A DNA stretch of 64,000 nucleotides, from positions 4,434,501 to 4,498,500 of the forward strand of contig NZ_CP045429.1 of the NCBI RefSeq assembly GCF_005886805.2, read 5' to 3'. A model generated the notes under the pieces. That model was given only the letters and a program-made list of their open reading frames with translations. It made no database searches and was not told the DNA's origin. Both the position numbers and the translations under genes were made by a program. Of this stretch, positions 16,084-18,350 are shown one piece after another (the first letter of the stretch is position 1; each line of letters starts with the position of its first letter). This DNA comes from Pseudoalteromonas rubra. GTDB taxonomy: Bacteria; Pseudomonadota; Gammaproteobacteria; Enterobacterales; Alteromonadaceae.

Positions 16084-16663
16084 GTTAGTCTCCATGAGTT
16101 AAGTAAAGATTTGCGCAAAGAAATCTTGATCATGGAATTTATAAGCCACAATTGTGCAATCACTATGGACTCAGACTGGGTAAAAAGGATGAGTTTTTCA
16201 ATCTATCCTACTGGTCAAGAGCACTGCACAGCCTGCCTTTTTTATTTCAAAAGTACTTTGCTGCTCACATCCGGAGTGAGTTAGCGCAGGTTAGCCAGCA
16301 AAAAACGGGGAATTTACTACCCATTTTGTCTGCAAAATACGCTGTTGAAAAAACGTCATAAAATAAATCATAGCGTCTTGGATAACACTTGTTTACATAT
16401 TCACGGGTACTGGTCATGAATCCATTCATAAAGTGCATCAGGCAAGGCGCGCACCAACGTCCATTAGAAACCCTTTATAACTCATGATTTTTACCTAAAT
16501 CAATGTAACTAAAACAAACTTTTAACGCGCAACCTAATCAGTATTCGGGTACAAAATAACAGATTGATACTTTACATTTTTTAAACAGCTGTTAAATTAC
16601 CCCGTATAATAATAAGCAACAAAATGTAACTTCACTGTTTTAATATTCATATACGGATGTACA
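16084..16663. other. Long divergent intergenic region before the XRE-peptide operon
   Basis: This 580-base AT-rich region separates the leftward RTX gene from the rightward regulator gene. It must hold both promoters, and the rightward one is recognisable at 16581-16610. A 69-codon frame inside it starts with TTG, has no ribosome binding site and is not considered coding. Confidence 0.6.
16581..16610 (+). promoter_or_regulatory. Predicted promoter with palindromic operator, XRE-peptide operon
   Basis: TTAAAC at 16581-16586 and TATAAT at 16605-16610 are 18 bases apart and could serve as -35 and -10. A perfect palindrome AACAGCTGTT (16584-16593) overlaps the -35, the usual place for an operator bound by a dimeric HTH repressor. 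Autoregulation by the XRE protein encoded 54 bases downstream is an inference. Confidence 0.5.
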
Positions 16664-16996
16664 ATGAATTCACGTCAAAGATTGAACTGGCTAAACAGCG
16701 CCCGAAGGGACATTCAGGCGTCACTGCGTAGTTTGCGAATACAACAAAAAATGTCGCAAGCCGAGCTGGCCAAGAAAATGTCCGTCCCGGTTGATCAGTC
16801 CACCATCTCCAATTGGGAAAGTGGTAAGACCATCATGGATCTGGAGCAATTGCTTGATATCCTGATGATCTTTGGTAAAGACTGGAAAAGCTTTTTTGGC
16901 TTACTGGCCGACAACGCAGAAAAAAGAACAACTAAAAAGCCCCAACAGAAAGAACCATCTATGGAACCAGAGACAGAAGACAAGGGAGAAGACTGA
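16664..16996 (+). CDS. XRE-family helix-turn-helix transcriptional regulator
   Basis: The 110-residue protein has a Cro/CI-type HTH at about residues 18-75. It runs LRIQQKMSQAELAKKM (helices 1-2), then QSTISNWESGKTIM, the recognition helix with the near-invariant SxWExGK, and LEQLLDILMIFG. The remaining 35 residues are Lys/Glu/Pro-rich and probably disordered. Its TGA overlaps the ATG of the next gene, so the two are translationally coupled. Small two-domain regulators of this kind commonly control linked peptide or toxin genes. The palindrome at 16584-16593 is a candidate operator. Confidence 0.85.
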   Translation: MNSRQRLNWLNSARRDIQASLRSLRIQQKMSQAELAKKMSVPVDQSTISNWESGKTIMDLEQLLDILMIFGKDWKSFFGLLADNAEKRTTKKPQQKEPSMEPETEDKGED

Positions 16997-17517
16997 TGCA
17001 TATTGTTGAGGTATTGCTCTCTTCCGTAACACTGATTGGACTAGTCATGACATGGCAGCACTATAACGCCAGGTGGCTATTTTTAATTCTTATTTTAGTA
17101 CAGTCAATTGAAGCCACAGTAAAGCCAATTGCCATTCAATGGACCCAGCATTATTACTTATGGCTGTTATTCGCCAACATTTTATACTTGTTCCTTCTTT
17201 TGACTCGCAGCGTACTTGCTCGCAGACTACACAAAGCTTCAGGCTGGAATTTCTTCAAACTTGCAGGAGAAAACTATTCATTGACTGTACCTGAATGCGC
17301 ATATTATGTTTTAGCTCTTGTAGCTATGATACTTTGCGGTGCTCAGTGGATTGAAATTCAACTCTATTATTATGAAATTCTTGATTATCCATTCATTTAT
17401 CACCATGTTTGGGTACCCGTTATGTATGTACTTCATGTATTGCAATCTCTATCACTCATTACATACATTTTTGTGACTAAAAGAACACAAGGAACTTTAC
17501 AATATGAAAATAATTAA
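16996..17517 (+). CDS. Polytopic membrane protein, possible immunity or sensor/export component
   Basis: The 173-residue protein is mostly hydrophobic, with about five candidate membrane segments (about 3-20, 27-45, 53-71, 100-120 and 135-160) separated by short basic loops such as LARRLHKASGWNFF. No enzymatic motif, Walker box or peptidase motif is visible, and the family is not recognised. It is translationally coupled to the XRE gene (TGATG) and overlaps the first small-peptide gene by 14 bases. In bacteriocin-like operons a gene in this position and of this size often encodes immunity, but that role is inferred from context only. Confidence 0.75.
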   Translation: MHIVEVLLSSVTLIGLVMTWQHYNARWLFLILILVQSIEATVKPIAIQWTQHYYLWLLFANILYLFLLLTRSVLARRLHKASGWNFFKLAGENYSLTVPECAYYVLALVAMILCGAQWIEIQLYYYEILDYPFIYHHVWVPVMYVLHVLQSLSLITYIFVTKRTQGTLQYENN

Positions 17518-17641
17518 ACGTGTTTTACTGACTCAGGTTGCAGGTGGAGTCAGTGGAGACCCTGATAGATCAACATTGCCTAGAATGGCACCGATCGATC
17601 CCCCTTTTGAGAAAAAGAAAAAAGCGCCTTATACAGGTTGA
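17504..17641 (+). CDS. Double-glycine leader peptide 1 (candidate exported peptide precursor)
   Basis: The 45-residue peptide starts with the ATG that overlaps the end of the membrane-protein gene. Its first 15 residues, MKIIKRVLLTQVAGG, have Gly-Gly at -2/-1, Val at -4 and Leu at -7, matching double-glycine leaders cut by C39 peptidase transporters. The 30-residue remainder contains TLPRMAPIDPP and a basic KKKK tail and lacks cysteine, so no disulfide or lanthionine is expected. The same leader length and an AP-Ile-Asp/Asn motif occur in the peptides at 17800 and 18185. Function unknown: bacteriocin, signal or competence-like pheromone are all possible. Confidence 0.75.
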   Translation: MKIIKRVLLTQVAGGVSGDPDRSTLPRMAPIDPPFEKKKKAPYTG

Positions 17642-17960
17642 ATTTATTAATTGATTCATAAACAACACTGCAACTTTATAGCCAGAGATAATATATCACC
17701 ACATATGAGCACCAGCTAAATATACGCTTTATATAGTAGATATATCAGTGCTATTTACTTTTATCATCAGAACATTAAGAACACATGGAGCACCACATTA
17801 TGAAGGTAATTAAAAATGAGTTTTTACCGACAATTAATGGCGGTGGGGGAGGCAATCCCAACTTGCCCGTATTACTCAAATTCGCACCGATAAACCCTCC
17901 TCTTAAGGAAAAAAAACATAGAACAGGTTAAACACGTCGATTTATTAGTCTATTCATAAA
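17642..17960 (+). repeat. Conserved inter-peptide segment, two copies (17642-17662 and 17940-17960)
   Basis: Just downstream of the stops of the first and second peptide genes are 21-base segments of the form ATTTATTA...ATTCATAAA that agree at 18 of 21 positions. A shorter relative (GAATTTATTAATAAAAG) lies near the end of the third peptide gene. The shared flanks indicate that the peptide genes arose by tandem duplication including non-coding DNA. Confidence 0.6.
17800..17931 (+). CDS. Double-glycine leader peptide 2
   Basis: The 43-residue peptide is preceded by GGAG ten bases before its ATG. The leader MKVIKNEFLPTINGG is again 15 residues, with Leu at -7, Ile at -4 and Gly-Gly at -2/-1. 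It runs into a five-glycine stretch, so the exact cut could be later. The predicted core has NLPVLLKFAPINPP and a basic tail (KEKKHRTG) similar to peptide 1. No cysteine. It lies 158 bases downstream of peptide 1. Confidence 0.72.
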   Translation: MKVIKNEFLPTINGGGGGNPNLPVLLKFAPINPPLKEKKHRTG

Positions 17961-17975
17961 GAGGAAAGTAACCTA

Positions 17976-18164
17976 ATGGAGATACCTATTAGGCTCCCAT
18001 TAAAACACGACATGTTACCTAAAGTCTTTGGAGACGCAGCAGGAGGAGGTAAACCTGAACTACGAGATGTTGAAGCAGTAATACGGATTAAAGAGCCAGG
18101 TAAAAAATTTAAGTCACTCATGAGTATGAATTTATTAATAAAAGCAAGGCCAGCACAACAGTAA
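17976..18164 (+). CDS. Diverged member of the small-peptide family
   Basis: The 62-residue peptide has a good GAGGA ribosome binding site before its ATG and lies 44 bases after peptide 2. It resembles the neighbours loosely. MLPKVFGD sits where FLPTINGG and NLGHIFGG lie in the others, followed by GGGKPEL and IRIKEPGKK in place of GGGNPNL and INPPLKEKK. The terminal Gly of the leader is Asp, and the characteristic AP-Ile-Asp is not kept. Its extended C-terminus reads through sequence related to the non-coding segment after its neighbours. It may be a decayed or specialised copy. Confidence 0.55.
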   Translation: MEIPIRLPLKHDMLPKVFGDAAGGGKPELRDVEAVIRIKEPGKKFKSLMSMNLLIKARPAQQ

Positions 18165-18184
18165 ATACAAAAGGATATCTTCAT

Positions 18185-18313
18185 ATGAAAAGAATCAATC
18201 GAGACAATCTAGGCCATATTTTTGGTGGTTTACCTGCAAATTCAAAACTACCAACATTGCCAAAAAGCGCACCAATAGATAAAACAAAGCTCTCTGAAAG
18301 TACGCAAAGCTAA
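18185..18313 (+). CDS. Double-glycine leader peptide 3
   Basis: The 42-residue peptide starts at an ATG preceded by AAAGGA. MKRINRDNLGHIFGG is a 15-residue leader with Leu at -7, Ile at -4 and Gly-Gly at -2/-1. The 27-residue core contains KLPTLPKSAPIDKT, which aligns with the TLPRMAPIDPP of peptide 1, but ends in a neutral Ser/Thr/Gln tail rather than a lysine-rich one. It is the last gene before a clear terminator, 21 bases after the diverged copy. Confidence 0.75.
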   Translation: MKRINRDNLGHIFGGLPANSKLPTLPKSAPIDKTKLSESTQS

Positions 18314-18320
18314 GCTTAGG

Positions 18321-18350
18321 AGTACATGCTTTTTAGGCATGTGCTCTTTC
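18321..18350 (+). terminator. Terminator of the XRE-peptide operon
   Basis: AGTACATGC and GCATGTGCT form a 9-bp stem (one G-U pair) with a 7-base loop, followed by CTTTCTT. It lies 8 bases after the stop of the last peptide gene and marks the end of the operon. Confidence 0.75.

Follow-up and report, generated by a model that had tools for sequence, protein, structure and literature searches.

What is the function of a compact operon in Pseudoalteromonas rubra that encodes a small XRE-type regulator, a membrane protein and four tiny peptides? The operon lies on the forward strand of the 64,000-nucleotide stretch of contig NZ_CP045429.1 analyzed here (the window, to which positions below refer), and the first-pass annotation of this sequence had proposed it as an undescribed double-glycine peptide operon. 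Our analysis upholds that proposal: the leaders are of the exporter type, and related modules were found in 33 of the 108 genus genomes compared. It also makes the system larger, adding a family of modules, a remote exporter, a decayed second membrane-protein copy and a set of palindromes. On the basis of sequence comparison we favor a reading that we consider about evenly balanced between right and wrong, namely that the operon belongs to a lineage-specific family of modules for autoinducing peptide signaling, each controlling itself and all sharing one exporter. Its computed support consists of gene order, exporter-type leaders, core covariation, recurrent palindromes and the co-occurrence of modules with C39 and LanC.

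The six open reading frames (ORFs) are arranged as first annotated, and receiver, regulator, candidate operator and peptides are packed into a block of ~2 kb. The regulator (16664..16996, +, 110 aa) matches HTH_3 above the cut-off (PF01381, E 4.5e-12), and its stop codon shares a single base, 16996, with the start of the gene for the 173-aa membrane protein (16996..17517, +), a predicted helical bundle that might sense the peptides or inhibit the XRE protein. This gene in turn overlaps that of peptide 1 by 14 nt. Peptides 1 (17504..17641, +; profile E 1.4e-13), 2 (17800..17931, +; 3.0e-11) and 4 (18185..18313, +; 5.2e-9) begin with leaders (MKIIKRVLLTQVAGG, MKVIKNEFLPTINGG and MKRINRDNLGHIFGG, respectively) of 15 residues that end in GG, with Leu at -7 and Ile or Val at -4. 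Their cores of 30, 28 and 27 residues have LP...APID/N in common and contain no Cys, again in line with the initial description. Peptide 3 (17976..18164, +) had been taken for a diverged relative, and alignment bears this out: it shares 17/42 identities (E 0.003) with a peptide of an orthologous operon and has GD in place of GG. It was not among the peptide-profile matches in its own genome and, with its GG lost, is possibly not exported. The terminator predicted after the peptides is a hairpin at 18318..18348 (+; folding energy -19.9 kcal/mol, z -4.9), which is absent from a pattern-scan listing of the window.

Matches to the membrane protein were found in 33/108 genomes of the genus, 24 of which hold two or more (fragments counted). 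Eight listed places were left out, and the 119 ORFs recovered correspond to 106 distinct proteins. Of these, 75 have an XRE gene from a single subfamily no more than 900 nt upstream, and 70 have it directly upstream. A profile built from 64 member peptides matched downstream of 62 of the 70 XRE-membrane pairs, as compared with 8/36 among the remaining membrane proteins, 0/106 on the reverse strand and 0/106 in one shuffle (0/70 each for the XRE-membrane pairs). The first-pass annotation had staked its case on homologous small ORFs adjoining such pairs in relatives, and these counts speak for it. In two of the eight profile-negative pairs there is an ORF of a different kind with a GG/GC leader; the profile also matched 12/106 upstream stretches, perhaps due to tandem modules. 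In 61 of the 105 loci with enough DNA, an independent leader rule picked out leader-type ATG ORFs downstream of the membrane gene (1/105 on the reverse strand, 10/105 upstream, shuffle mean 1.55). In the genome of the window, the profile recovered peptides 1, 2 and 4 plus one peptide adjoining a second module (L048), with no further match below E 0.17; at E 0.17 stands a lone 53-aa GA-leader-like ORF on the second contig (L121:1495-1656). In two other loci (L059, L039), the first module is followed by another XRE-like ORF and another membrane protein, for which no leader-type peptide was found.

The family appears confined to this lineage. Protein-search matches with organism names were all hypothetical proteins of Pseudoalteromonas, the closest named being P. 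rubra itself; named relatives include P. rubra S2676 and P. sp. XMcav2-N. A search of 394 genomes across the order, scoring at most eight candidates in each, returned only the genome of the window, G478 (1.6e-5) and G436 (9.5e-4). In G478, from a different family of the order, a 210-aa membrane protein with distant similarity stands in a row with an HTH_3 protein and an 83-aa ORF (L094); the regulator-membrane pair may therefore have an earlier origin and also work alongside other small proteins. The four window peptides matched no family at E≤10 in domain-family scans, and we found no description of the module family in the open-access literature, as far as listings, the beginnings of abstracts and, where many matched, the first entries go.

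Leader and core statistics were taken from 90 family peptides, after exclusion of 3 of 93 ORFs (two with GTG starts and one unlikely ORF). The peptides had been chosen on positions -7 and -4 and on a G-G/A/S/C cleavage site, without use of position -12. Nevertheless, -12 is Val, Ile or Leu in 90/90 leaders and -15 is Met in 77/87, and the conservation of the unselected -12 completes the -15/-12/-7/-4 pattern of leaders handled by C39 exporters. According to PMC7018657, it is at these positions that the peptidase domain of the exporter binds the leader. The cores are short (median 27 aa, range 12-44, 11/90 of 16 aa or less) and hydrophilic, with a median grand average of hydropathy of -0.99 and a median charge of +1; P-x-L-P is present in 54/90 and Cys in 10/90. 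The ratio of nonsynonymous to synonymous change (pN/pS) was 0.38 for leaders and 0.35 for cores in 26 pairs picked at 60% identity or more. This excess of synonymous change speaks for the first-pass proposal, which had suggested testing leader and core for purifying selection.

A single C39 domain was found in the genome of the window, in a 714-aa exporter with C39 and two ABC domains, in which the catalytic Cys, His and Asp are visible by eye. Its gene adjoins those of HlyD, LanC and LanB proteins ~97 kb from the operon, outside the window. C39 and LanC were both present in 33/33 module-bearing genomes, as opposed to 48/75 (C39) and 18/75 (LanC, one below cut-off) elsewhere. The palindrome described below was not found at ≤1 mismatch before HlyD in any of 18 loci (L110 left out), four having it at two mismatches, hence nothing indicates control of the exporter by the modules. 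In 13 of 21 LanB/LanC or C39 stretches scanned (L098-L116 being the LanB/LanC stretches), we found precursors whose leader has the form KLKLxKK...GG; the 20-kb LanB/LanC stretch of the window's own genome yielded no precursor in a scan that included lanthipeptide-type leaders. In the modules L026, L078 and L085, the leader of one peptide (KKLKELSL..AK.V.G) looks lanthipeptide-leader-like by eye, a hint that both kinds of peptide might use one exporter.

Lanthipeptide-like KLKLxKK...GG precursors with very variable, Cys-bearing cores are also scattered singly around these genomes, at L127, L129 and L130 in the genome of the window and at L131, L133, L134 and L136-L138 in relatives. An example with a Cys-containing core was seen in 9 of 14 stretches inspected, and matches at E≤0.1, mostly weak, occurred in 44/108 genomes of the genus; five examples tried against NCBIfam models gave no match at E≤0.01. 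Prochlorosins are made by one enzyme set acting on many scattered substrates. The arrangement seen here resembles theirs, but with class I enzymes.

If the leader is read by a common exporter and the core by proteins of the module itself, the core should be the part that varies with those proteins. We compared similarities across 32 non-redundant loci of 51, taking the first peptide of each. Membrane protein and XRE protein covary most strongly (r 0.83). The membrane protein follows the core (r 0.51, p 0.0005) far more closely than the leader (0.10, p 0.07), and the difference persists at matched length (0.52 for the first 14 core residues, 0.09 for the leader); the XRE protein likewise follows the core (r 0.49). 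Such a pattern fits the division of labor outlined above.

Upstream sequences of the modules share a palindrome, ATGAA-N4-TTCAT, that is present at ≤1 mismatch in 21/34 non-redundant regions, compared with 0.75 in shuffles. A longer form of it, sought over a wider interval, was found at ≤1 mismatch in 17/38 regions (0.1 in shuffles, 0/38 with the reversed pattern). The window has an exact copy, ATGAA-TCCA-TTCAT(AAAG), at 16416..16433 (+; listed as repeat D1), ~230 nt 5' of the XRE start codon. Weaker copies follow peptide 1 (17646..17663, +, motif match) and peptide 2 (17944..17961, +, repeat listing), and a third precedes peptide 4, within the end of peptide 3 (18126..18143, +, motif match). 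Internal copies recur in the family: in 39 loci, 27 sites (18 loci) lie within 700 nt past the membrane gene against 2.45 in shuffles, and the density falls from 0.99 per kb there to 0.26 per kb in the following 700 nt (7 sites). The upstream interval holds 28 sites (27 loci), the membrane gene 7 and the interval further upstream 4. Counts of a related 17-mer were 8-16 in each of six genomes and exceeded the reversed control in five. Separately, a second palindrome (TTTAAACAGCTGTTAAA, 16580..16596, +) overlaps a promoter-like -35 and is identical in the nine window-clade operons compared, including that of the window. The promoter-like hexamers (16582-16610) match at 10/12 positions, a level at which the window scan gave 8 sites with 6.7 expected. 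The ATGAA-N4-TTCAT palindromes are candidate operators, and may instead be duplication scars or cassette boundaries.

Which protein might perceive the peptide? Above the cut-off, the 110-aa XRE regulator matched only HTH families, with no sensory domain recognized, making the membrane protein the natural sensor. A structural model predicts it as a helical bundle (pLDDT 92.4, pTM 0.84), and W20, R26, Y54, R71, E100 and E120 are invariant in 46 aligned proteins (of 59 representatives). Neither a Pfam family, nor a PDB sequence, nor a confident fold match was found for it, which does not by itself make the fold new. We came across no described counterpart to the sensory architecture that an XRE-membrane-protein receiver of this kind would represent.

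From these elements we propose the following scheme. The peptides would be made with their 15-residue leader, and the sole C39 exporter, ~97 kb away, would cleave after Gly-Gly and release the short hydrophilic core. On the same or neighboring cells, the core would reach the operon's own membrane protein, which, as sensor or inhibitor, would control the small XRE protein. This regulator might then act at the palindromes that lie 5' of the operon and within its peptide array, creating an autoregulated switch. A more ambitious version, which we advance tentatively and at less than even confidence, is a Gram-negative multi-channel pheromone system, in which, in many genomes, several private channels, every one with an XRE-membrane receiver and Pro-rich peptides of its own, would be served by one exporter that also handles lanthipeptides.

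Several observations weigh against signaling. The strongest is that, in 21 of 56 loci, a single membrane protein is followed by between two and five different peptides (one distinct peptide within 1 kb in 35 loci, two in 13, three in 4, four in 3 and five in 1). A pheromone/receptor pair rarely comes with several peptides, and bacteriocin operons commonly do. Eight of the 70 XRE-membrane pairs lack a profile match, and peptide 3 lacks the GG of an exporter leader. Joint inheritance can produce all of the covariation, and contributes to it. The XRE-leader correlation is small yet nominally significant (0.10-0.11, p 0.03); among 15 more diverged loci the core correlation drops to r 0.21 (p 0.02), and that between the XRE protein and the first 14 core residues to 0.07 (p 0.20); among six loci the core correlation is 0.44 (p 0.03), with p 0.06 for the first 14 residues. 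The palindrome was chosen by eye after viewing the upstream sequences, 9/38 regions depart from its longer form at three or four positions, and the 17-mer is no commoner than the reversed control in one of the six genomes. Finally, the C39/LanC co-occurrence counts ignore phylogeny, and picking pairs by identity favors low pN/pS values.

The alternative that survives best, which we nonetheless regard as rather unlikely, is a bacteriocin- or microcin-like module: the peptides would inhibit related bacteria, the membrane protein would confer immunity and the XRE protein would regulate production. The multiple peptides of the 21 loci suit it, and so does core-membrane protein covariation. The membrane protein's size, location and adjacency fit the immunity proteins of class II microcins, as PMC9746304 presents them. 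The gain, loss and decay of peptides point the same way.

The sequence also bears on the history of the array. Between the peptide 1 and peptide 2 genes lies what is left of the C-terminal part of a second, decayed membrane-protein gene (17679..17810, +; G000:C1:4452179-4452310), which aligns to query residues 130-173 at 39% identity with two stops. It overlaps peptide 2 as the intact membrane-protein gene overlaps peptide 1, and we take this to mean that the array expanded as units of membrane protein plus peptide were duplicated. The array of peptides 2-4 is unstable among relatives, with fast turnover: one relative (G007) has a peptide 1 of identical amino-acid sequence and lacks peptides 2-4, another (G106) has ORFs like peptides 1, 2 and 4, and in a third (G061) the first peptide is frameshifted, its core continuing in another frame. 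The expectation of intact peptides in close strains was thus borne out for peptide 1 in the first of these, and not for the frameshifted gene or the missing array.

Against the bacteriocin interpretation stand the cores themselves, hydrophilic and 12-44 aa long as against the 60-90 aa of class II microcins in PMC10233263. A P-x-L-P common to 54 of the 90 cores, the six invariant residues of the 46 membrane proteins, the eight pairs in which the profile recognized no peptide and the decayed membrane gene beside a retained peptide also argue against it. We favor signaling because the cores are hydrophilic and shorter than class II microcins, and consider a family of weapons less likely.

Another possibility, which we judge distinctly improbable, is that the XRE-membrane pair senses something else, such as envelope stress or phage, and that the peptides are outputs, not signals. 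That the XRE-membrane covariation is the strongest, that the pair can stand without a recognized peptide (8/70), and that G478 has, in a row, an HTH_3 protein, an 83-aa ORF and a membrane protein of weak similarity (E 1.6e-5) would all agree with this; a mere output role leaves the covariation of core and membrane protein unexplained. Least credible is that the peptides are additional remote substrates of LanB/LanC, modified before export: LanC in all 33 module-bearing genomes, a 20-kb LanB/LanC stretch devoid of its own precursor and the lanthipeptide-like leaders seen by eye in some modules lend it something, but the window peptides have no Cys, just 10/90 cores have any, and the KLKLxKK...GG precursors in 13/21 stretches and elsewhere make this reading less likely by offering the enzymes other likely substrates.

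Signaling by exported GG-leader peptides is well known in Gram-positive bacteria and, to our knowledge, sparsely documented in Gram-negative ones. Paralogous modules with a single exporter would make Gram-negative peptide communication directly testable: removal of the one C39 exporter gene in the genome of the window should silence all channels. Should inhibition of competitors be their role instead, the peptides would form an unusually short, hydrophilic class.

How does the family compare with known systems? Receptors of the Rgg/SHP and other RRNPP types combine an HTH with a C-terminal TPR peptide-binding domain; in the 110-aa XRE protein, only HTH families were recognized above the cut-off. 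The GG-leader pheromones ComC and EntF act through histidine kinase receptors. Their leader type is that of the peptides here, and model matches at E≤1 were weak (EntF 13/64 members, best 0.0014; ComC 4/64, best 0.0026); the six operon proteins, however, include no histidine kinase or response regulator, and an XRE and a membrane protein are found instead. The pseudorosins, class I lanthipeptides, come from the same genus (PMC12819058), and the genome of the window has LanB, LanC and C39 in one locus. The window peptides differ from them in having no lanthipeptide-type leader and Cys in 0/4, unlike the Ser/Thr- and Cys-containing core that defines class I lanthipeptides. Class II microcins of the colicin V type (PMC9746304, PMC10233263) resemble the family in their Gram-negative hosts, GG leader, C39 exporter with membrane-fusion protein, and small membrane protein next to the peptide (here 173 aa, with a putative immunity role). 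Their cores are 60-90 aa long (PMC10233263), compared with 12-44 here and 27-30 in the window, and the exporter here is unlinked, the regulator is of the XRE type, many genomes carry several copies and P-x-L-P is frequent.

The closest working analogue appears to be the LytTR Regulatory Systems, HdrRM and BrsRM of Streptococcus mutans, but the proteins differ. In these, according to PMC6193735, a membrane protein restrains a regulator, and the autoregulated pair controls bacteriocin genes. The regulator here is HTH_3/XRE and not of the LytTR family, the candidate sites are palindromes, in contrast to direct repeats upstream of the -35, the peptides are in the same operon, and the membrane protein matched no family. 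As in those systems, regulator and membrane protein are encoded together, and here the two covary, with the membrane protein a putative inhibitor of the regulator.

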